Source: a virus. Taken from it: 23,808 nucleotides of DNA. The stretch lies in IMG/VR virus record IMGVR_UViG_3300020473_001313, positions 1 through 23,808 of that record; one strand, 5' to 3'. Within the stretch, counting starts at the first letter, position 1. Every line of letters begins with the position of its first letter. Shown here in pieces: positions 2,485-22,778 of this stretch. The notes under the pieces were generated by a model. That model saw nothing but the letters and a program-made list of their open reading frames with translations, ran no database searches and was not told where the DNA came from. A program made the position numbers and the translations under genes.

Positions 2485-2492
2485 AATAAATA
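2485..2492 (+). promoter_or_regulatory. Late-like promoter element before csgF
   Basis: AATAAATA at 2485-2492 contains the TAAATA core and ends 5 bases before the ATG at 2498, the same geometry as at 1548 and 10683. No good -35 box is present. It favours the second ATG (2498) over the one at 2492, which overlaps the element. Confidence 0.4.
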
Positions 2493-2497
2493 TGTGT

Positions 2498-2968
2498 ATG
2501 ATAACGAGAATCTTATTAATATTCGTATGGCTAGGATTGACTCCTGCAATGGCTGAAAGTTTGTCTTTTAGTTTTGGGAATCCTGCATTCAGTGGTGAAG
2601 GATATAGTTCACACGTTCTATCTATTGAACAATTACAATATTCACGTGGACAAGACATAGAAGCGGATGCAAAATCTGCTCGTAGTGCCGCTGAACGAGC
2701 AGAAAAAAATACAACAATTAATAAATTTATTGCCAATGTTGAATCTAGAATCTACGCAAATTTGTCAAAGCAGTTGGTAGATAATATGTTTGGCACGACT
2801 TGTGACAGTGAAACAACAACCTGTCCTACGTCTGGCACCGCAAATGTTGAAGGTTCTGTAATTTATTGGGTGAAAGATGCCACTTCTGGCAACATTACAT
2901 TGACTGTCACTGCAACTGACGGAGCAGTAACAACACTGACAGTTCCTGTGGGAGACTTTGTATTCTAA
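2498..2968 (+). CDS. csgF: CsgF-like curli assembly factor
   Basis: CsgF is the small secreted partner that binds the CsgG outer-membrane pore and, in Enterobacteria, plugs its neck with an N-terminal peptide and helps nucleate the curli fibre. This 156-residue product has a signal peptide (MITRILLIFVWLGLTPAMA). The mature protein begins ESLSFSFGNPAFSGEG, matching the CsgF N-terminus pattern (hydrophobic-polar strand, F-x-NP-x-F-x-G). A helical middle and a beta C-terminus with a GSVIYWV segment and an LTVTATDGAVTTLTVPVGDF end match the family. A C-x6-C cysteine pair and an alanine/glutamate-rich helix (about 50-70) are less typical. It overlaps csgG (TAATG at 2968), as expected for partners. 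Confidence 0.88.
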   Translation: MITRILLIFVWLGLTPAMAESLSFSFGNPAFSGEGYSSHVLSIEQLQYSRGQDIEADAKSARSAAERAEKNTTINKFIANVESRIYANLSKQLVDNMFGTTCDSETTTCPTSGTANVEGSVIYWVKDATSGNITLTVTATDGAVTTLTVPVGDFVF

Positions 2969-3798
2969 TGAAAATACTTGCAACCATATTAGCATTGTGT
3001 TGGATAACTGGCTGTGCAACAATGCAACCAGAAAATGTAAAAATAGGGCAGGAGCCATTTGTTACTGCATCCACCACTTCAGTTTTATTGGCACAGATTC
3101 CGCCATTAGATCAACCAAAGATTACTATTGCAGTATATTCTTTTCCAGATCTAACAGGACAACGCAAACCTAATTCAAAATTTTCTTTGCTATCGACAGC
3201 AGTTCCACAAGGATCTGAAGTATGGGTAATACAAGCATTGAAAACTGTGGGCAATGGTGAATGGTTTCAAGTAGTTGAAAGAGGAGGCTTAGACAACCTA
3301 GTGAAAGAAAGGCAACTTATAAGATCAACAAGAGAATTGTATGATGGTGATGATGGCGCAGGGAATGTGCTGAAGCCTATGCTTTTTGCTGGACTAATTG
3401 TCGAAGGTGGCATTGTTGGATATGAGGCAAACACTCAATCAGGTGGTGATGGTGCCAGATACTTTGGCATAGGTGCACATGAAGAATACAGAGTTGACCA
3501 AGTAACTGTATCAATGAGACTGGTAGCAGTACAAACAGGCGAAGTGCTCCTAACACAAGAAGCAACTAAAACCATAGCAAGTATGAAAACTGGTGTAGAT
3601 GCATTTAGATTCTTAGATATGAGTACAAAAGCCTTTGAATTAGAAAGCGGAGTGGCAGTAAATGAACCAGTTATGTACGCAGTTAGATCTGCCATAGAAT
3701 ATGCTTTGTTCGAACTCATTATAGCGGGTGAAAATGATGGCTTCTGGAAGTTTAAATACAACAAACATGTGGGAAATATAGATGAAGTTTTTAACTAA
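2968..3798 (+). CDS. csgG: CsgG curli outer-membrane secretion channel
   Basis: CsgG is a lipoprotein that forms a nonameric outer-membrane channel for curli subunits. The 276-residue product has a lipoprotein signal with lipobox ITGC (Cys16), so the mature chain of 261 residues is almost the same length as Escherichia coli CsgG. Family hallmarks are all present: IAVYSFPDLTGQ (54-65), STAVPQ (76-81), VERGGLDNLVKERQLIR (103-119), GYEANTQSGGDGARYFGIG (151-169) and VNEPVMYAVRSAIE (231-244). The constriction-loop region between GQ and STAVPQ (KPNSKFSL, 67-74) differs from the KPYPASNF of the bacterial protein, so the narrow part of the pore is probably altered. It is coupled to csgF and overlaps the curlin-repeat gene by 17 bases. 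Confidence 0.96.
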   Translation: MKILATILALCWITGCATMQPENVKIGQEPFVTASTTSVLLAQIPPLDQPKITIAVYSFPDLTGQRKPNSKFSLLSTAVPQGSEVWVIQALKTVGNGEWFQVVERGGLDNLVKERQLIRSTRELYDGDDGAGNVLKPMLFAGLIVEGGIVGYEANTQSGGDGARYFGIGAHEEYRVDQVTVSMRLVAVQTGEVLLTQEATKTIASMKTGVDAFRFLDMSTKAFELESGVAVNEPVMYAVRSAIEYALFELIIAGENDGFWKFKYNKHVGNIDEVFN

Positions 3799-4492
3799 TT
3801 TATTAACGATAGCATTCTTTGGAATGTTCTTTTTGTTTGGAATGATGTATGCCGCATCATCCAATGATATCTATGTGACTCAAAGTGGTGGTGGTTCATT
3901 TACATTTGATGTTTTACAAGATGGACAAAACAACACCATAGGTAATTCAACCACTGCATCTACGAACACTGGTGCAACACATAACCTAAATATTGATCAG
4001 GTTGGTAATTCAAACGTATTAACATATCAAGTAAACGGTGCAAGTTTTACAGGTGTGTTTAATACAACTGGTAATTCAAACGACATAGACTTTAATTGTG
4101 ATACAGGTGGATCAAATTCATCTTGTGGTACAGTTAATTCAAATATTACATTCACTGGTAATTCAAATGATATCGACATAGACGTTGGATTGACTGCGGC
4201 GGCAACTGGTTTAGATTTAGATGTAACCGGTGCTTCTGGTTCTGACAGTAACGTGATTGCGGCAACAATTGATGGTACATCAGCAATAATGAACTTGTCA
4301 CTCAACGGTGATACTAACAACTATCTAATTGATATTGATGGCAACGGTGATGTAAATGGACACACTTTAATACACAGCCATACAGGCGGTATTGCAGATG
4401 TGGACATTGTTCAAAGTGGTGTGTATGATAACTATATCGCTCTTACAACTGCTGGTGACAACCATAACATTGACATAATTCAAAGAGACTAA
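3782..4492 (+). CDS. Curlin-repeat protein, candidate curli subunit (CsgA/CsgB-like)
   Basis: The 236-residue product has a hydrophobic signal peptide (residues about 1-25) and then imperfect curlin-type repeats built on G-N/D-S-N-x-(V/I/L)-x-(V/I)-x-Q/D. Clear units include GNSNVLTYQVNG, GNSNDIDFNCDTGG, GNSNDIDIDVG, and the last two, VDIVQSGVYDNYIAL and NHNIDIIQRD. Curlin repeats form stacked strand-loop-strand units in amyloid fibres exported through CsgG. Glutamine positions are often replaced by aspartate, and one C-x7-C pair occurs, so the repeats are degenerate. It overlaps csgG by 17 bases and is the obvious secretion substrate. The related DNA units (GGTAATTCAAA) are coding repeats. 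Confidence 0.85.
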   Translation: MKFLTNLLTIAFFGMFFLFGMMYAASSNDIYVTQSGGGSFTFDVLQDGQNNTIGNSTTASTNTGATHNLNIDQVGNSNVLTYQVNGASFTGVFNTTGNSNDIDFNCDTGGSNSSCGTVNSNITFTGNSNDIDIDVGLTAAATGLDLDVTGASGSDSNVIAATIDGTSAIMNLSLNGDTNNYLIDIDGNGDVNGHTLIHSHTGGIADVDIVQSGVYDNYIALTTAGDNHNIDIIQRD

Positions 4493-4504
4493 TTTAATTA
4501 AATA
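4470..4504 (+). promoter_or_regulatory. Possible promoter before the FecR gene
   Basis: TAAATA at 4499-4504 ends 5 bases before the ATG at 4510. TTGACA at 4470-4475 with TTTAAT at 4493-4498 (17-base spacing) is an alternative sigma70 reading, but the TTGACA lies inside the coding repeat for NIDIIQ and may be coincidental. Either way the mRNA would have almost no leader. Confidence 0.35.
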
Positions 4505-4509
4505 TTGCT

Positions 4510-5619
4510 ATGAAGAGCATTTTTGTAATATTTTTTCTTATGATTCCTAGTCTTTTACATGCAAATTCTATAGGCGATGTGATCATGCATGAAGGGTCCG
4601 GTGTAATAGAACGTAAGGCAAATGGAGAAGAAGTTACGACACAAACGGAACTTGATGTGTTTTCATTTGATACTGTCAAAACTGGCAACGGCAAAACAGC
4701 AATTGAATTTTTAGATGCCACTAGAGTTGATGTTACACAACACAGTAAATTAACAATAGATGATTTTGTGTATGATCCTAACACCAGCACAGGAAAATTA
4801 TCATTAAAAGCATCACTAGGCACAGTCCGTTATGCTTCAGGACAAATTGCTAAAACTAGTCCAACAAATGTAACAATATCAACACCAACAGCAACAATAG
4901 GTGTACGAGGAACAGACTTCTCAATGACAATAGATGAAGTTGGATCTTCTACAATAATTTTATTACCATCATGCAATACAAATGGAATGTGTTATGTGGG
5001 CGAGATATCTGTCGAGTCAGATGCAGGGTTTGTAATAATGAATCAAGCCTTCCAAGCAACTGTGGTTGATACTGTGGCCTCAATACCAATGAAGCCTGTT
5101 ATATTAGAACTTGATGAAGATTTAATTGGCAACTTGATGATTATTTCTAAACCAACAGAAATACAAGAACAACAAGAAGCAGAAGCATACAATCAGGTTG
5201 CATCAGCATTGGACATAGACTTTTTACAATTTGATAACTTGGAGATAGATTATCTAGAAGAGGAGGAAGATACATGGGCAACTGGACTTGACATTGATTT
5301 CTTAGAACAAAACTTTCTTGTTGATGTATTGGTACAAATTAATAAAGAATTAACAAAAGCAATGAAACAGGCAGGCCTTGATCGAAAAGAAACAAAAACT
5401 GACGGAATACAATTAGGTAAAGATCCAGAGACTGGTATTATTATTTTAGACGAAGATCCACAATGGGTCTATTCACGTGAGGGTGCATCAAACTTTTTTG
5501 AATTACGTTTAGACAAAGAACAAGGTTACATTATAAATTTTGTACAAGGCGACTTTGAAGTTGTTGATTATTATTTAGGAGATGGGGACAGTGAAATTTT
5601 TATCATTCAGTCTAATTAG
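4510..5619 (+). CDS. Exported FecR-domain protein
   Basis: The 369-residue product has a clean signal peptide (MKSIFVIFFLMIPSLLHA) and a FecR domain over residues about 20-145: GDV...GSGVIERKANGEE, DTVKTGNGKTAIEFLDATRV, LTIDDFVYDP, GTVRYASG and ISTPTATIGVRGTDFSMTI are the usual landmarks. Unlike FecR of iron uptake there is no cytoplasmic anti-sigma part and no membrane helix, so it is a soluble periplasmic or surface protein. The C-terminal half is very acidic with repeated LDIDFL motifs (about 235-275), possibly a protein- or metal-binding segment. FecR-domain proteins are often found near CHASE2 cyclases in bacteria, and a CHASE2 cyclase lies downstream here. Its exact role is unknown; a sensor or cell-surface ligand role is inferred. 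Confidence 0.85.
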   Translation: MKSIFVIFFLMIPSLLHANSIGDVIMHEGSGVIERKANGEEVTTQTELDVFSFDTVKTGNGKTAIEFLDATRVDVTQHSKLTIDDFVYDPNTSTGKLSLKASLGTVRYASGQIAKTSPTNVTISTPTATIGVRGTDFSMTIDEVGSSTIILLPSCNTNGMCYVGEISVESDAGFVIMNQAFQATVVDTVASIPMKPVILELDEDLIGNLMIISKPTEIQEQQEAEAYNQVASALDIDFLQFDNLEIDYLEEEEDTWATGLDIDFLEQNFLVDVLVQINKELTKAMKQAGLDRKETKTDGIQLGKDPETGIIILDEDPQWVYSREGASNFFELRLDKEQGYIINFVQGDFEVVDYYLGDGDSEIFIIQSN

Positions 5620-6979
5620 TCTTTTGGTCCTTATATTCATGTATGTGCCTAACAAAGCAAATGCAGGATCACTCAACTGGACTGCTTACTCAATTTCACA
5701 TTATGCACCATATGTTGAATCATCTTGTTTCAATAATTATTCTTATCTATCAACCTGTAACAACACAAACTGGGCCTATGTTAATTCAACTGCGATTGCA
5801 TCAGGCACACTGACAAGTATAAATCAAAACTGGAACAGTGGCAGTATCATACCAGATGGAAGCACAAACATAGGATCTAATTCTAGGATGCTAGTAATCA
5901 CAGGATATTGGCAACATCCGGGAACTGCAGGTCAAACATCAACAGTTTATTTTGCCGGACGTAACGATGATGGACTGATCGTAAACATCAATAACACCGC
6001 AGTAATATCTGATTGGGCACAACAAGGTCCAACATATTGGAATTCATATGGCTCATTTACAGGTGTAGGTGGTCAATGGTATCCTATTGTGATCAATTGG
6101 TATGAATGGGGTGGCTCAGCCAATATGGATATTCATTATAGAATAGATGGTAGTAATGGCATTGGTACAACCAGTGGGTGGCTTGACCACAATTCAAATA
6201 TGTTCTCATCTACAGAGCCTAGTGTATCAATCACAGCAGGACAAACTACAATTCTTAACAATGCAATGGGTGTTACAGGTAATGGAGTAAAATTGTCTAT
6301 AGATGGCGATAACAACACCGTAAATATTGAACAAGAAGGTGAAGATAATTTTATTGTTGGCACTGACTGGACATCAAATGCCACGATCAATGGGGATTCA
6401 AACACAGTGACAATCGACCAAGGCAATGTTACAACGTCAGGCTCGCACAGTGACAACAATGGTATTGCAATGGCTATTACTGGTAACAGTAACACTCTTA
6501 CAATAAGTCAAGGAGATGCAAACAATGATAGAGGTGAACACAGAATATGGACAGACATTACAGGTAATTCAAACAATGTTAATATTCTACAAAAAGATCA
6601 TGGCGGTAATTGCTGTCACAGTGAACATTTTCTATCTTTAGATTTGGATGCATCAAGTAACACAATAAACTTGACACAAAAAAATGATGGCAATAAAGTT
6701 ATGTTTTTAGATATTAATAACAATAGCAACACAATTGATATAATGCAACAAAACATAGGAGAACATTATTTAGATTTAACTCTAAGTTCAGGATCTTATG
6801 CACATGACATTGACATTACACAATCAGGTAGTGCCGATAAGTCGGCAAGAATAACTTTGGGTGGTTATTCATATAACTTTGATTTGATACAACAAGGATC
6901 AAGCAGTCAGTCTTATTCAGTTGACAGCACCTGTGGTAGTGCCAGTGGTTGCACACTATCAACGACACAAGGAAACTAA
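5591..6979 (+). CDS. PA14-like domain fused to curlin repeats (secreted adhesin candidate)
   Basis: A signal peptide (about residues 1-26, ending NKANA) is followed by a PA14/GLEYA-like beta domain (about 30-200): TVYFAGRNDDGLIVNINNTA, then YWNSYGSFTGVGGQWYPIVI and a GSANMDIHYRIDG strand, where PA14 domains have DDG and GG-A motifs. From about residue 225 to the end come roughly nine curlin-type units such as GDNNTVNIEQEG, GNSNTLTISQGD, GNSNNVNILQKD, SSNTINLTQKN and NSNTIDIMQQN. So a possible glycan-binding head is joined to an amyloid-type repeat tail. GTG at 5591 is preferred over ATG at 5582: AGGAG at 5577-5581 is 9 bases from the GTG but abuts the ATG. It overlaps the FecR gene by 29 bases. 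Confidence 0.8.
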   Translation: MKFLSFSLISLLVLIFMYVPNKANAGSLNWTAYSISHYAPYVESSCFNNYSYLSTCNNTNWAYVNSTAIASGTLTSINQNWNSGSIIPDGSTNIGSNSRMLVITGYWQHPGTAGQTSTVYFAGRNDDGLIVNINNTAVISDWAQQGPTYWNSYGSFTGVGGQWYPIVINWYEWGGSANMDIHYRIDGSNGIGTTSGWLDHNSNMFSSTEPSVSITAGQTTILNNAMGVTGNGVKLSIDGDNNTVNIEQEGEDNFIVGTDWTSNATINGDSNTVTIDQGNVTTSGSHSDNNGIAMAITGNSNTLTISQGDANNDRGEHRIWTDITGNSNNVNILQKDHGGNCCHSEHFLSLDLDASSNTINLTQKNDGNKVMFLDINNNSNTIDIMQQNIGEHYLDLTLSSGSYAHDIDITQSGSADKSARITLGGYSYNFDLIQQGSSSQSYSVDSTCGSASGCTLSTTQGN

Positions 6980-7209
6980 TGTTCGAAAAAACAAAAGCAC
7001 GTTGGAAAAAACTAATGACAACAGATAACATTATCGATGCTTCTGTTGATGTGTTAATTCTTGTGTTTGATGTGCTGTCTAGTCCTATATTGATTGCGAT
7101 GCGTATCTTTAGATTTTTGTTTAACAAGTTTATAGTTGATCATATTAAAAGTTTCATTAAATACATTGTACACAAATTTGATAAAAATGGAAATAGAAAC
7201 AAACAGTAG
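6979..7209 (+). CDS. Small hydrophobic, basic protein of the curli locus
   Basis: The 76-residue product has a basic start (MFEKTKARWKKLM), a long hydrophobic stretch (about 26-50, VDVLILVFDVLSSPILIAM) and a basic amphipathic tail. It probably sits on or in the inner membrane. The start is set by TAATG overlap with the PA14-curlin gene and AAGGA at 969-973 of the 6 kb line (6969-6973), 5 bases upstream. No family recognised. Its placement between the surface proteins and the cyclase suggests that it belongs to this unit. Confidence 0.65.
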   Translation: MFEKTKARWKKLMTTDNIIDASVDVLILVFDVLSSPILIAMRIFRFLFNKFIVDHIKSFIKYIVHKFDKNGNRNKQ

Positions 7210-7351
7210 AACATTCACATGTGATGGTTTAGTAGCACCAGATATGCATCCATCCGAGGGCCATCCTAAAGTATATCTGACAATGAAAGATGAAGAAACT
7301 GAACATGTGTGTCCTTATTGCAGTACAGTCTTTGTGCTAAAAAATGAATAA
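7187..7351 (+). CDS. zf-CHCC zinc-finger protein (NDUFS6-like)
   Basis: The 54-residue product carries a C-x(n)-H-x(n)-C-x2-C site: FTCDG, GHPKVYLTM and HVCPYCSTVFVL. This is the signature of the small zf-CHCC family, present as a stand-alone protein in alphaproteobacteria and related to the mitochondrial complex I subunit NDUFS6. ATG 7187 is chosen because the family starts just before the first cysteine; the longer frame from 7136 overlaps the previous gene more. It overlaps its neighbours by 23 and 8 bases. It looks recently taken from a host-type genome. Its role is unknown. Confidence 0.85.
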   Translation: MEIETNSRTFTCDGLVAPDMHPSEGHPKVYLTMKDEETEHVCPYCSTVFVLKNE

Positions 7352-9383
7352 AATAATTACACACTGGGCCATGGCTCTAATTACTCTGGTGGTGCTTACA
7401 TTTGTAGGTCTTGAAGATCCCTACGTCAAACAAATTCTTAGATTAAAATCATTTGATCTGTATCAACAATATGAAGACAAAAACTTTTCACAAGATATTG
7501 GAGTCGTAACTATTGACGAAGCAAGTATAGAAAAATATGGACAGTGGCCGTGGAAACGTGATGTGTTAGTAGACATTATTATCAAACTGAGACAGTCGCA
7601 GGTTGGCATTATTGTGATTCCTATTTTGTTTGCAGAGCCAGATAGAATGGGAGGAGATGAAGTATTTGCACAAACTATTCAACAAATGGGTGTGGTGATT
7701 GCACAGGTAGGTACAACACAAATTAATAAAAATTCTGTGCCACGTGGAGTGGCAAAGATAGGAGATCCTTTACCTTATCTTTTTGAATGGCCAGGCATGC
7801 TAGGACCAATACCTGAACTAGGACAGATAGCCGATGGAGTAGGTGTGATTAATACTGCACCTGAAATAGATGGCGTTGTGAGAAGAATACCTTTGATAAT
7901 GAGAGTTGGAGAAGAAACTTATCCTGCTATGGCACTAGAAACAATCCGTGTTGCAACTGGTGACCCGAGTTATCAAATCAAAGCAGGTCCTGCCGGCGTA
8001 CAGGCTGTAAGGGTGCCTGGCTTCAGCACAATAGAAACTGATGCTCATGCTAGGATTTGGTTAAGATGGAACAAAGAATATGAAACTATTTCAGCATCAT
8101 CGGATGACTTTTCTGCTTTTGCTGGACGCACAGTTGTCCTAGGTGTCACTGCTGAAGGACTGGCTAGTGTCATTGCAACACCTACAGGAGAACAATATGA
8201 CTATGTGTTATCTGCATCAACACTTCAAACAGTGATAGATGGGAAGCAATTGACTCGCTATGACATAAGTCATATGTTTGAATTACTAATTGCACTTGCA
8301 GTAGGGGTTATTGTTGTTTTAATGGCTCGATTTACGCCATATTGGGCAGTTGGAGTGTCAATGCTTATCCTTTACGTTGCAGGCGTATATGGCGCTTTTT
8401 ATCTGTTCAAACAACATCTTATGCTGGTAGATGTCAGTTGGATATTAATTACAATTACATTTGTAGGTATGCATTCTATATTCAACAGATTTGTTTTGGA
8501 ATTTAGATTAAAACAACAGATTAGAAAACAGTTTGAACATTACCTTGCTCCTAGTATGGTTGCACAGTTACAAAAAAATCCAAGTTTGTTAAAACTTGGC
8601 GGTGACACTCGCAGACTTACAATGTTGTTTTCAGATCTACGGGGATTTACATCTTTGAGTGAAAAATACAAGGACACACCACAAGAACTTACAAACATAT
8701 TGAACAGGTACATGACTAGAATGTTAAACATTGTTACGGCCAATGAAGGCACAGTTGATAAGTTGATAGGCGATGCTGTCATGGCATTTTGGAATGCTCC
8801 ACTTGATGTTAAAGAACAAGAAGTGAAAGCAGTGAAAACAGCAATACAGATGGAGCACGAATTAAAATTGTTGAACAATGAATTGAAACGTGAAAAGTTA
8901 CCACAACTTGCAATCGGAATAGGTATCAACACAGGAGATGTTGTGGTTGGCAACATGGGATCTGACACAAGATTCGACTACACCGTTATCGGTGACGCAG
9001 TTAATCTAGCGGCAAGACTAGAAGGCCAATCCAAAACCTATGGTGTTTTAGTTGTGTTCGGAGAAGAAACAAGAGATGCATTCCCAGATAGTGAACTGAA
9101 TAAATGTGTGCCTATAGATAAGATCAGAGTCAAAGGTAAAAATGAACCAATCGATATCTATACCTACGATGAAAATCCAAAAGTACATCAAGTTATGAAT
9201 GCCATGCTGACAGCATATCGACAAGCAGATTGGAAAACTGCAACTGCAAGATTAAAAGATATGAGTGTGTTGTGGCCTAAATACCAAACACTTATCAATC
9301 TTTACCTAGAAAGAATAAAACATTACAAGAAAAATCCACCAAACAAAGATTGGGATGGTAGTTTTACTGCATTGACAAAATAA
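7344..9383 (+). CDS. CHASE2-domain class III adenylate/guanylate cyclase
   Basis: The 679-residue product has an N-terminal membrane helix (about 7-22), an extracytoplasmic CHASE2 sensor domain (about 25-305; IGVVTIDEASIEKYGQWPWK at 52-71 is typical), three membrane helices (about 311-328, 332-355, 361-379) and a cytoplasmic class III cyclase domain (about 420-605). Catalytic residues are all present: metal-binding Asp431 (FSDLRGFT) and Asp477 (DKLIGDAVMAF), base-selecting Lys473 and Thr547, and transition-state Asn554 and Arg558 (GDAVNLAARLE). The Lys/Thr pair favours ATP, so cAMP is the expected product. The start at 7344 overlaps the zinc-finger gene by 8 bases. A C-terminal helical tail (about 612-679) follows. 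A sensor cyclase in a phage is unusual; the bound signal is unknown. Confidence 0.93.
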   Translation: MNKIITHWAMALITLVVLTFVGLEDPYVKQILRLKSFDLYQQYEDKNFSQDIGVVTIDEASIEKYGQWPWKRDVLVDIIIKLRQSQVGIIVIPILFAEPDRMGGDEVFAQTIQQMGVVIAQVGTTQINKNSVPRGVAKIGDPLPYLFEWPGMLGPIPELGQIADGVGVINTAPEIDGVVRRIPLIMRVGEETYPAMALETIRVATGDPSYQIKAGPAGVQAVRVPGFSTIETDAHARIWLRWNKEYETISASSDDFSAFAGRTVVLGVTAEGLASVIATPTGEQYDYVLSASTLQTVIDGKQLTRYDISHMFELLIALAVGVIVVLMARFTPYWAVGVSMLILYVAGVYGAFYLFKQHLMLVDVSWILITITFVGMHSIFNRFVLEFRLKQQIRKQFEHYLAPSMVAQLQKNPSLLKLGGDTRRLTMLFSDLRGFTSLSEKYKDTPQELTNILNRYMTRMLNIVTANEGTVDKLIGDAVMAFWNAPLDVKEQEVKAVKTAIQMEHELKLLNNELKREKLPQLAIGIGINTGDVVVGNMGSDTRFDYTVIGDAVNLAARLEGQSKTYGVLVVFGEETRDAFPDSELNKCVPIDKIRVKGKNEPIDIYTYDENPKVHQVMNAMLTAYRQADWKTATARLKDMSVLWPKYQTLINLYLERIKHYKKNPPNKDWDGSFTALTK

Positions 9384-19916: not shown

Positions 19917-20287
19917 CAATGCATTTAGTTAGACCTTGGTTGTCTACGACAAGATACAACATTAAAAAACCAAAACTTACAAAAAAAGATATTGAAGCAA
20001 GAAAAGAACATGAAAAGTTTCTTAAACAAATGGGTGTTGGTAGAAAGCATTCTTGGAGATTTACAAAGCCTGCCCCTGAGCCTATCAAACCAGTCATACA
20101 AGTAGATGATGTCAAATTAAGCAATAAGATAGGTGGCGGTGGTGGATTCAAAAGATCATTCCAAGAAGAGCAAGACAGATTAGAAGTTTCCAAACAGTTT
20201 GATATTGGGCCTGCTTACAACAAAGGGCCATATCAGGTACTATCAAGAGAGGATTCCAAAGATCCTTCAACTGGTAAAAGGCGTTGA
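19913..20287 (+). CDS. Unknown basic protein (124 aa)
   Basis: The product is lysine/arginine-rich, begins MHLVRPWLSTTRYN (the second ATG, 19919, is an alternative start), has a helical charged part (about 24-45) and a GGGGGF linker (about 74-79), and ends with NKGPYQVLSREDSKDPSTGK. No catalytic motif is visible. It looks like a compact phage-specific protein of unknown function, co-translated with the acidic-tailed protein before it. Acidic and basic neighbours could form a pair, which is speculation. Confidence 0.6.
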   Translation: MTMHLVRPWLSTTRYNIKKPKLTKKDIEARKEHEKFLKQMGVGRKHSWRFTKPAPEPIKPVIQVDDVKLSNKIGGGGGFKRSFQEEQDRLEVSKQFDIGPAYNKGPYQVLSREDSKDPSTGKRR

Positions 20288-20311
20288 CGAAAACAATATT
20301 AATGCTATAAT
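20284..20311 (+). promoter_or_regulatory. Sigma70-like promoter, leaderless start
   Basis: TTGACG at 20284-20289 and TATAAT at 20306-20311 with a 16-base spacer; the -10 box ends 5 bases before the ATG at 20317. It overlaps the preceding stop codon and heads the envelope cassette. Confidence 0.75.
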
Positions 20312-20316
20312 AAAGC

Positions 20317-20661
20317 ATGATTAGATACATTTACAATTTGGTTAGAAGTTTGATAGAAGACTTGATACAAGAGAGATGGTTATGGATGTTAATAATTGCA
20401 GTAATACTGCTTCTTGTATTTCTAAGCAGTTCTAAGGCAAATGTGAATGTGATTCCAAAAACAAACAAAACAGAAATTATAACAGATTCGTCCGCATGGC
20501 AATCCCCGGACGGAAACAGTGATATGATACCAGCAGACTTGTTTATATCACAAGAAGGATGGATGTGCCAAAACAAATTAGTCATATACTATGCAAACGG
20601 ATTACAACAGGCTGGTAGAAAATGTATGATGCCAGATGGTGTATGGCGATTAATTAAATGA
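20317..20661 (+). CDS. Membrane-anchored protein with periplasmic domain
   Basis: The 114-residue product has one membrane helix (about 22-38, LWMLIIAVILLLVFLSS), then a polar periplasmic domain with cysteines in WMCQNK and RKCMMPDG (about 82 and 103) that may form a disulfide. It is the first gene after a promoter and is followed within 8 bases by a lipoprotein gene. No family recognised. The neighbours suggest an envelope-complex component. Confidence 0.65.
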   Translation: MIRYIYNLVRSLIEDLIQERWLWMLIIAVILLLVFLSSSKANVNVIPKTNKTEIITDSSAWQSPDGNSDMIPADLFISQEGWMCQNKLVIYYANGLQQAGRKCMMPDGVWRLIK

Positions 20662-20668
20662 GGAAACT

Positions 20669-21199
20669 ATGAAGAAGTTAATCATAATGTTATCAGGTCT
20701 TGTATTTTTGACGGCTTGTGCCGGCACAGGATTTGTTAATGACAACATAAAAAAACCAAAGTTGACTTTATCAACAGGTACCCAAGCACCTAAATGGTTC
20801 ATGGACTATCCAAAAGATGGTAAAGGCACAATCTATGCAGTAGCAACAGGACAAAGTGATGACCTACAACTTGCTATTGATAAAGCGATGTTGGATGCAA
20901 AGGTATTGTTAGCAGACAAGATGCAAAATAGAGTGAATGCAGATATTAAAACTGTTATCACTGACAATGGCGTCGGTGGTGTTAGCACCAATGTTGAACA
21001 ACAAACCACAAAGATAGAACAAAGTGTTATTGACAAAAATGACATGAGTGGCTATGTAGTGCAAAACAGTATTGTGGTAGCAGAAGGCACAGGGTACAGA
21101 TCATTTGTTCTCTTGTCATATGATACTGAAAACTGGTCACCACCGGTCAAAACTGTTAAGGTTGACCTAAGTGGCATTGCCAGTAGTGTCGTAGAATAA
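20669..21199 (+). CDS. LPP20-type lipoprotein
   Basis: The 176-residue product has a lipoprotein signal peptide with lipobox LTAC (Cys17). The body, APKWFMDYPKDGKGTIYAVA (residues about 41-60), then SDDLQLAIDKAMLDAKVLLA and an IEQSVIDKNDMSGYVVQNSI segment, matches the LPP20/FlgP-like lipoprotein pattern (proline-W, A-V-A-T-G, helix of A-x-x-x-A-K). Such proteins sit in the outer membrane and are linked to flagellar or other envelope assemblies. Ribosome site GAGG precedes the ATG. It is coupled to the small gene that follows and to a DUF4384 protein. Confidence 0.8.
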   Translation: MKKLIIMLSGLVFLTACAGTGFVNDNIKKPKLTLSTGTQAPKWFMDYPKDGKGTIYAVATGQSDDLQLAIDKAMLDAKVLLADKMQNRVNADIKTVITDNGVGGVSTNVEQQTTKIEQSVIDKNDMSGYVVQNSIVVAEGTGYRSFVLLSYDTENWSPPVKTVKVDLSGIASSVVE

Positions 21200-21324
21200 T
21201 GACTAAGACTATACTTGTTTTTGCAGTTGGCATGATTGTAGCATGGAACTGGGTCGATCAACCTATATGGGTGGCTCAGTCTCTGCAGATGTCTGTGGAC
21301 TTTTTAACAAACATCACACGATGA
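21199..21324 (+). CDS. 41-residue membrane protein
   Basis: A short frame opens at ATG 21199, overlapping the lipoprotein stop as TAATG, and closes at TGA 21322-21324, overlapping the next ATG as ATGA. The product (MTKTILVFAVGMIVAWNWVD and a short tail) has one hydrophobic helix (about 5-18). Double stop-start coupling is strong evidence that it is translated and not noise. It is too short to assign; probably an inner-membrane accessory protein of the same cassette. Confidence 0.7.
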   Translation: MTKTILVFAVGMIVAWNWVDQPIWVAQSLQMSVDFLTNITR

Positions 21325-22106
21325 TCAAACGATTGTTAGTAGCAATATTAGGATTTTATATTTTACTAATATTTCTTCCAACCACAGATCTTTACGCAAA
21401 AACTGTTGAAGGCACAGGCTATCATTACTTTGGCCCAGACATCACTGAAAATAGTTCCTGTCTGTTTGCAAAACTAAAAGCAGAAGAAGATGCCATAATA
21501 AAAGGTTCTGGTGAAACAGTCTCAGCACAAGATTGGAAAGTCTGCAACGATCCTGAGTGTGTGCTTACTGAATACCGCTGGACAATGTTGAATGGAATGA
21601 TTCTCCGTTCTACTTTGTTAGAAAAAACTATAACAGAATTTTTTGGACAACAGGTTTGCAAAGTCACCATATTAGCAGAAGTTATGCCAGTTGAAAAAGA
21701 TCCTTCTTTCACTGCTACCATTCATCTTAACACAAATTTATACAATGTAGGAGACAAATTAATTATTAATGTTGATCCTTCACAAAAGATGTATGTGTAT
21801 GTGTTCAGTTGGAATAGTGCAGATTTTGAAACTGTGAATGTACACAGAATATTTCCAAACAAATATGAAACTGCACAGATCAAAAAACAAACAATTATTC
21901 CAAGTAGTGACTATGAATTGGTCATGACATTGCCAAATAATTACACAGACTCTAAACCTATTGATGAATATTTGTTTGTGGTAATGAGCAAAAAGAAAAT
22001 GTCTTTTGCACAAGGATACAAGTTTCCATCATTCAATCAACTATTGTTAGAACTTGATCCTTATGAAACAAATGTAGAAATAGTAGGAATAACCATTGCA
22101 AAATAA
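21321..22106 (+). CDS. Exported DUF4384-type protein
   Basis: The start at 21321 is chosen for its signal peptide (MIKRLLVAILGFYILLIFLP, to about residue 26) and the ATGA overlap. The 261-residue product has an N-terminal helical/beta domain with two or more cysteines (about 30-125) and a C-terminal DUF4384-like beta domain (about 133-225) with YNVGDKLIINVDPSQ, MYVYVFSW and IFPNKYE. In bacteria DUF4384 proteins often occur with LPP20 lipoproteins and CsgG-like proteins, and are thought to act in envelope or flagellar assembly. The neighbouring lipoprotein fits that. The function in a phage is unknown. Confidence 0.75.
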   Translation: MIKRLLVAILGFYILLIFLPTTDLYAKTVEGTGYHYFGPDITENSSCLFAKLKAEEDAIIKGSGETVSAQDWKVCNDPECVLTEYRWTMLNGMILRSTLLEKTITEFFGQQVCKVTILAEVMPVEKDPSFTATIHLNTNLYNVGDKLIINVDPSQKMYVYVFSWNSADFETVNVHRIFPNKYETAQIKKQTIIPSSDYELVMTLPNNYTDSKPIDEYLFVVMSKKKMSFAQGYKFPSFNQLLLELDPYETNVEIVGITIAK

Positions 22107-22124
22107 ATTTAAAATTGTTACAAT
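22096..22124 (+). promoter_or_regulatory. Sigma70-like promoter, leaderless start
   Basis: TTGCAA at 22096-22101 and TACAAT at 22119-22124 with a 17-base spacer; the -10 ends 5 bases before ATG 22130. The upstream in-frame TTG at 22115 overlaps the promoter and is not the start. Confidence 0.65.
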
Positions 22125-22129
22125 TAGAT

Positions 22130-22576
22130 ATGTATAGATCAACAAAGAAAATAGGTCCTATATCAACAGGACACAGACAGTGGCGTGATGATGGACATTG
22201 CAGTTATGTTCATGGCTATGGTCGGTATGTTCAATTCACCTTTGCATCAGACAACCTAGATCACAGAGGTTGGGTGATGGATTTTGGTGGACTCAAAGGT
22301 GTTAAAAAATGGTTAGAAGAACAATGGGATCACAGACTGTTACTTGCTAGTGATGACCCACTCTTAGATGAATTTAGAAAAATTGATGAACTTGGAGGTT
22401 GTAATATTAATGTAATGGATGTTACAAAAGGATATGGTCCAGGCATTGAACAATCTTGTAAATTTGTATATGACCATGTTAATCCTATGATACTAGAAGC
22501 AACTGACAACAAAGCATGGTTAGAGAAAGTAGAAGTTTGGGAACATGAACTCAACTCAGCATTCTACACACCTTAA
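22130..22576 (+). CDS. 6-pyruvoyl/6-carboxy-tetrahydropterin synthase-like enzyme (QueD family)
   Basis: The 148-residue product shows the QueD/PTPS plan: His15 in STGHRQW, GHCSYVHGYGRYVQF with Cys24 and His28, LDHRGWVMDFGGLKGVKKWL (43-62) and the WDHRLLL element (Asp67, His68), with a late VEVWEH glutamate. The usual HGH zinc pair is HGY here (Tyr30), which is also seen in some proteobacterial QueD-like proteins as I recall. It likely converts dihydroneopterin triphosphate in 7-deazaguanine or pterin synthesis; many phages use this for modified DNA. Start set by the leaderless promoter. No other queuosine-pathway gene is in the window. Confidence 0.85.
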   Translation: MYRSTKKIGPISTGHRQWRDDGHCSYVHGYGRYVQFTFASDNLDHRGWVMDFGGLKGVKKWLEEQWDHRLLLASDDPLLDEFRKIDELGGCNINVMDVTKGYGPGIEQSCKFVYDHVNPMILEATDNKAWLEKVEVWEHELNSAFYTP

Positions 22577-22778
22577 GTGGATAGCGACAGCAACACTTAT
22601 AATTGGCACTTTAATTAATTCATTAGGATATTATCCATCAGGCCCTATAATTTTAGCAGTAGGCGGATTTATTTGGTTAGTGGTTAGTGTCATGTGGAGA
22701 GAGCCTGCCCTTATTGTGACTAATGCCGTGTTGTTCATTGTCGGCGTTGGCGGATTAATATATACAAATTTACTATGA
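22545..22778 (+). CDS. Small multi-helix membrane protein (77 aa)
   Basis: The product has about three hydrophobic segments (residues about 12-27, 32-48 and 55-76), with short polar joints and few charges. Similar short proteins occur in marine bacteria as unnamed membrane proteins. It overlaps the QueD-like gene by 32 bases and the next gene as ATGA (22775-22778), so it is translated in a coupled run. Function unknown. Confidence 0.6.
   Translation: MNSTQHSTHLKWIATATLIIGTLINSLGYYPSGPIILAVGGFIWLVVSVMWREPALIVTNAVLFIVGVGGLIYTNLL

Follow-up and report, generated by a model that had tools for sequence, protein, structure and literature searches.

The DNA under study, a 23.8-kb piece of a viral contig (the window, by which the whole of this stretch is meant), carries near its 3' end a run of four consecutive genes, g1 to g4, which encode a signal-anchored protein, an LPP20-type lipoprotein, a short membrane peptide and an exported DUF4384 protein (Table 1). 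The genes are closely coupled: g1 and g2 are separated by 7 nt, g2 and g3 overlap in TAATG, and g3 and g4 overlap in ATGA; the sequence GAGGAAAC precedes g2. The overlap of g3 with g4 assumes that g4 starts at 21321, which was preferred over the mechanical ATG at 21243. The boundaries of the four-gene cassette proposed in the original prediction (20317-22106) hold with these gene starts.

Table 1. Promoter and genes of the cassette, in window coordinates
Feature	Position	Strand	Basis
Sigma70-like promoter, TTGACG-16-TATAAT	20284..20311	+	5 nt 5' of the g1 ATG
g1, signal-anchored protein, 114 aa	20317..20661	+	ORF; one TM segment near residues 23-40
g2, LPP20-type lipoprotein, 176 aa	20669..21199	+	Lipobox LTAC17 with lipid-attachment Cys17; homologues; fold
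g3, single-TM membrane peptide, 41 aa	21199..21324	+	ORF; N-terminal TM
g4, exported DUF4384 protein, 261 aa	21321..22106	+	Pfam PF14326; signal peptide ends near LYA

A single leaderless promoter had been predicted for the cassette, and the sigma70-like promoter found directly 5' of g1 agrees with this. The arrangement recurs in the window, as four ATG codons (9406, 13164, 19575, and 20317) each lie 3-8 nt past a strong sigma70-like -10 box, against 0.15 such promoter-ATG units expected, and none of 100 shuffled sequences reached four. Near-leaderless starts thus appear to be a trait of this phage and not of the cassette alone; the sequence can fairly be read as placing a near-leaderless start at g1, and phages of this group may commonly make early transcripts with almost no leader. 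In related phage loci, strong sigma70-like sites were found upstream of 50 of 734 ORFs, compared with 6 of 1290 random 80-mers, and these sites include those of g1 and of the g4-type gene of loci L022 and L046. The T4-type late promoter TATAAATA does not occur in the window.

The window also contains a full phage curli locus (2492-9383) with genes for CsgF, CsgG, two curlin-repeat proteins, FecR, and a CHASE2-adenylate/guanylate cyclase. Since phages HTVC008M and Melnitz carry a curli locus likewise, the window was assigned to the pelagimyophage-like T4-type phages, whose likely hosts are of the SAR11/OM43 type. By eye, the N-terminal part of the last curlin protein of the locus resembles a PA14-type domain. 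Directly 3' of the cassette lie a gene for a QueD-like 6-pyruvoyl-tetrahydropterin synthase (22115-22576; PF01242, 2.9e-22) and one for a small DUF6552 protein with hydrophobic segments (22545-22778).

The four products and their bacterial relatives

The match of g2 to the Pfam LPP20 family (PF02169; E 0.079) scores 13.8 bits, below the gathering threshold of 25.9, so the protein is named LPP20-type and is not counted as a curated member. Its predicted LPP20 identity is nonetheless borne out, and the kinship shown, through sequence homologues and the modelled fold. The g2 homologue of Terasakiella, with which g2 shares 32% identity (4e-19), passes the Pfam model at 27.5 bits, and the lipid-attachment Cys17 of the lipobox is conserved without exception in the 39 phage homologues aligned. 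An AlphaFold2 model of g2, made from the phage alignment, has a mean pLDDT of 72 and a core of 85-97. The top structural match of this model is Helicobacter pylori Lpp20 (5OK8), with a Foldseek E-value of 3.9e-4 and a Z-score of 10.1 (rmsd 2.8 over 103 residues), where unrelated rows score Z 4-6; sequence identity between the two proteins is 16%. In BFVD, the model also matches proteins that are labelled "LPP20 lipoprotein" and belong to uncultured Caudovirales and to Campylobacter phage CP8. The LPP20 family is not covered by PHROGs, which gave no match for HTVC008M or Melnitz and only a weak partial match (0.008) for Mosig. A match of g2 to phrog_1119, the Cor exclusion protein (E 0.07), covers residues 1-20, which is the signal peptide, and was dropped as evidence for exclusion.

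Lpp20, FlgP, and FlgT are known to be related in fold (PMC12222027), and g2 resembles both H. pylori Lpp20 and the SHS2-like FlgP/FlgT/dodecin proteins in being a lipoprotein with a beta-alpha...beta-beta fold. The insert that in FlgP is a ring-forming beta-hairpin, between the helix and the second strand, is present in g2 but is modelled as helix, and g2 has no flagellar context.

The identification of g4 as a DUF4384-type protein, also part of the original prediction, was confirmed by Pfam (PF14326; E 4.8e-8, 33.4 bits against a cut-off of 27). The protein consists of an N-terminal beta-alpha-beta-beta domain and a C-terminal beta-sandwich, which is the DUF4384 domain, and has four invariant cysteines. 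Its structural model is weak (mean pLDDT 63). Foldseek and VIA-align returned only generic beta-sandwich matches to the C-terminal half; the low-confidence model of the N-terminal domain matched a Campylobacter jejuni periplasmic scaffold at E 0.14, and FlgT was absent among the listed structural matches. The Terasakiella homologue of g4 is 29% identical over its full length (2e-36), and its gene adjoins that of the LPP20 protein. In a tree of g4 homologues, the window sequence sits on a very long branch, and its exact placement is not settled by the tree.

The remaining two products are tied to counterparts elsewhere by motif, size, and position. The C-terminus of g1 has a two-cysteine motif, C...RKCMMPDGVW, that resembles one in exported proteins of the 17-kDa-antigen type whose genes adjoin LPP20 in other phages. 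An HMM built from this motif ranked g1 first among 143 window ORFs (E 3e-4, the next at 1.3), and homology to these proteins is suggested by this short motif. Pfam gave no match of g1 to the 17-kDa surface antigen family (PF16998), and the exported proteins near LPP20 in HTVC008M and Mosig match this family at 2e-4 to 5e-4, below the cut-off. In size and composition, the g3 peptide agrees with the one whose gene lies immediately 5' of LPP20 in other phages. It matches phrog_20849 (E 2e-4), and an HMM built from the peptides of other phages did not recover it. It may be viewed as their analogue by position and, at most, as a putative homologue.

Bacterial chromosomes carry the same pair of genes. 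In all eight proteobacterial genomes recovered with a related LPP20, a g4 homologue is encoded on the same strand no more than about 3 kb away; a g4 profile built from phage sequences alone matched all eight of these loci (E 2.8e-21 to 6e-64) and also two Bacteroidota loci, in one of which the gene is 14 nt from LPP20. The g4 and g2 homologues of the Rhodospirillales (Terasakiella brassicae, L188; Rhodospirillaceae, L183-L187) are adjacent or within 3 kb on the same strand. The T. brassicae operon encodes a caspase-domain lipoprotein, a TPR-trypsin, DUF4384, and LPP20, that of Rhodospirillaceae LM-1 encodes a TPR-trypsin, DUF4384, a TPR/GNA1162-like lipoprotein, and LPP20, and a betaproteobacterial version includes a MORN-caspase. 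Such operons, which join exported TPR-trypsin and/or caspase proteins to the DUF4384-LPP20 pair (L188, 1932-6401; L187, 3888-8495; L192, 3327-7039), look like an undescribed envelope protease system. The phage cassette, on the other hand, is without the exported caspase, the TPR-trypsin, and the GNA1162-like TPR lipoprotein of the Rhodospirillales operons, and adds the membrane peptide and g1. The kinship of phage g2 and g4 with the bacterial pair is shown at the level of sequence. In a tree of LPP20 sequences, those of phages fall on one side (91/94), next to Rhodospirillaceae-type sequences, which favours a single acquisition from that quarter.

Distribution of the cassette in phages

Using the homologues from Melnitz, Mosig, and HTVC008M as queries, relatives of g2 were found in 513 IMG/VR stretches, and the lipoprotein is widespread among marine T4-like phages; viral scans with g4 or g2 as single sequences gave no match, and relatives came up only once sequences from four phages had been aligned. 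The lipoproteins HTVC008M gp178, Mosig 00167, Melnitz gp76, and the "LPP20 lipoprotein" proteins of CP8 (gene at 49720-50244; profile match at 49864-50229, E 2.9e-4) and uncultured Caudovirales are of the same type as g2, so that phage LPP20 genes were known earlier, annotated merely as hypothetical or as LPP20. At 43 non-redundant loci, the lipoprotein gene is mostly preceded by a gene for a single-TM peptide of 38-53 aa (38-47 aa in HTVC008M, Mosig, and Melnitz, where it is directly 5'), the two genes abutting or overlapping, for instance by ATGA or by 11 nt. Upstream of the peptide gene lies a g4-type protein, often the N-terminal domain alone, or another small exported protein. The usual companions of the lipoprotein in marine T4-like phages are thus a short inner-membrane peptide and small exported proteins of the disulfide type. 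The window differs from these loci in its order (g1, LPP20, peptide, DUF4384), with LPP20 ahead of the membrane peptide, and in retaining a complete DUF4384 partner. An independent scan with g4 recovered ten other phage contigs, all ten of which contain LPP20, adjacent in several of them; the intervals at L093 and L094 are 15 and 33 nt. These results show, from gene content and order, that g2 and g4 form a real gene pair. LPP20 is probably not universal among T4-like phages: it was absent from all five contigs of 42-181 kb in a terminase-based sample, which held few large contigs and in which the position of a fragment could explain an absence.

In Melnitz, a gene for a SleB-type cell-wall hydrolase (gp77; L002, 12507-13034) abuts the LPP20 gene and shares one base with it; the sole lysin-like gene according to the Melnitz paper is gp67. 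In other marine phages, a GTP cyclohydrolase I or beta-ketoacyl synthase gene directly follows LPP20 (L006, L031; L013, 10612-11769).

The residue that follows the lipid-attachment cysteine also varies. According to the E. coli rule, an aspartate at this position retains a lipoprotein in the inner membrane. Such an aspartate (CDKTP) is present in 9 of 42 phage lipoproteins (L030, L039, L045, L046, L055, L057, L065, L073, and L081), a count taken from an automatic table in which a few other rows take the wrong cysteine. The location of the lipoprotein may therefore differ among phages.

Independence of the cassette from CsgG

The original prediction held that LPP20 and DUF4384 proteins of bacteria tend to travel with CsgG-like proteins and that the cassette may thus be a partner of the curli locus. 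The link to the curli locus is not supported, and the premise fails in the closest bacteria. CsgG was absent from all eight proteobacterial genomes with a linked LPP20-DUF4384 pair, and among 19 LPP20-bearing bacterial genomes, DUF4384 was found in 16 and CsgG in 6. Across 120 genomes from the order to which Terasakiella belongs, DUF4384 was present in 6 of 18 genomes with CsgG and in 25 of 102 without it, and no contig carried the two within 500 kb of each other. In the two of these genomes that have an LPP20 at Pfam level, this gene lies 1.7 kb from DUF4384, and CsgG is absent.

The co-occurrence of the cassette with phage csgG, which had been proposed as a check, proved to hold in one direction. 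Every CsgG-positive contig of at least 40 kb carries LPP20 (5/5, one of them HTVC008M), and the four CsgG-positive contigs that were examined have the same peptide-LPP20 unit together with small cysteine-containing exported proteins. In the other direction it failed, as none of 30 LPP20-positive IMG/VR contigs (16-128 kb) encodes CsgG, nor do G061 and G062, which have both the g4 homologue and LPP20, for a total of 0/32 metagenomic contigs; these are fragments, several of which hold at least 20 kb on both sides of LPP20. The complete phages Mosig and CP8 are likewise without CsgG, so that phages with the cassette and no CsgG-type gene, named beforehand as one part of what would speak against a curli link, do exist. 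The cassette does not occur only with CsgG and does not lie in or next to a csg operon, as an accessory factor of curli would; in CsgG-positive phages, LPP20 and CsgG are 9-21 kb apart, with LPP20 on either side (17 kb in the window). A search with PF12236 for podoviral curli phages among 40 CsgG contigs gave no match, and its positive control was likewise unmatched.

The phage curli (T8SS) module described from pelagiphages (PMC7029224, PMC9599517, PMC9004378) is found in the same phage as the cassette and is of alphaproteobacterial origin as well, but the two have no genes in common and are not adjacent, and LPP20 is frequent without curli. Neither LPP20 nor DUF4384 is mentioned in the principal publications about phage curli, and the literature search yielded no paper in which LPP20 is connected to DUF4384 or DUF4384 to CsgG. 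These data show, by gene content and linkage, that the cassette is independent of CsgG.

Proposed function of the cassette

Taken together, the export signals, the lipid anchor, the four invariant cysteines of g4, and a promoter of the early type suggest that an envelope assembly is made early in infection. We consider it possible, with a probability of about 0.4, that the cassette is a self-standing, early-expressed envelope module for remodelling or superinfection exclusion, and not an accessory of curli. This reading sides with the envelope location given in the original prediction and with its alternative of a separate outer-membrane complex. Transcription from the early promoter would be followed by export of all four products, of which g2 would receive its lipid and be attached by it to the periplasmic side of the outer membrane, or perhaps, in some relatives, held in the inner membrane. 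The domain of g2 would then bind g4, with g3 and g1 in the inner membrane, and an envelope-spanning assembly would form during infection. Localisation, complex formation, and early expression are all inferred here from features of the genes and their products. The likeliest use would be to alter the cell envelope of the infected host, for instance by blocking superinfecting phages or by readying the outer membrane for later steps. Superinfection exclusion and envelope remodelling are only proposed, by analogy with known phage envelope lipoproteins such as T5 Llp and Cor. The literature searched gave no function for any DUF4384-LPP20 pair, and this last step is thus built on analogy. Some loose functional connection with curli is possible, given that all CsgG-positive contigs of at least 40 kb carry LPP20.

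The main rival, which we hold to be unlikely, is a spanin-like role in lysis, in which the inner-membrane peptide and the outer-membrane lipoprotein would work together like a two-component spanin to disrupt the outer membrane at the final stage of infection. Overlapping peptide and lipoprotein genes recall spanin pairs, the g2 and g3 genes being neighbours joined by the TAATG overlap, and no spanin is named in the Melnitz paper. The cell-wall hydrolase gene directly 3' of LPP20 in Melnitz would also suit lysis, and counts against the envelope module proposed above. However, only about 20 residues of g3 lie outside the membrane and they contain no coiled coil, so that the peptide (38-53 aa among relatives) could not span the distance to the outer membrane, whereas g2 is a folded domain akin to proteins encoded on bacterial chromosomes. 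The window's endolysin lies 8.5 kb from the cassette, the promoter is of the early type, and the aspartate in 9 of 42 relatives would, by E. coli rules, keep the lipoprotein in the inner membrane.

It is highly improbable that the phage pair serves as a decoy or regulator, a protease-free version of the chromosomal system that would block or capture a putative host caspase/TPR-trypsin-DUF4384-LPP20 system and, as a decoy or dominant negative, disarm or rewire it early in infection. The operons of Terasakiella, Rhodospirillaceae LM-1, and the betaproteobacterial MORN-caspase type do combine the pair with proteases, and protease genes are absent from the phage cassettes examined. The protease parts of the bacterial operons also gave weak to moderate PADLOC matches, but these are to generic protease and caspase domains. 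If this were true, an undescribed envelope protease system would be a phage target.

Very unlikely, finally, is a role for g2 and the DUF4384 protein as periplasmic or outer-membrane accessory factors of the CsgG/CsgF pore encoded 17 kb upstream, for although the window, Melnitz, HTVC008M, and each large CsgG-positive contig carry LPP20 and both modules look alphaproteobacterial by origin (PMC9599517 for curli), this is countered by the LPP20-positive phages without CsgG, by the variable distance and side, by the proteobacterial pairs in genomes without CsgG, by the lack of association or linkage between DUF4384 and CsgG in the Rhodospirillales-type order, and by the absence of LPP20 and DUF4384 from the published description of the phage curli module.

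The pelagimyophage papers treat the curli genes at length and leave this second envelope module unmentioned, yet its lipoprotein is encoded by hundreds of marine phage contigs. The tempting link of LPP20 and DUF4384 to curli is removed as unsupported. Instead, two widespread families of unknown function gain a common genetic unit that is found in Bacteroidota, Proteobacteria, and phages, and of which the phage cassette represents a small, testable version.
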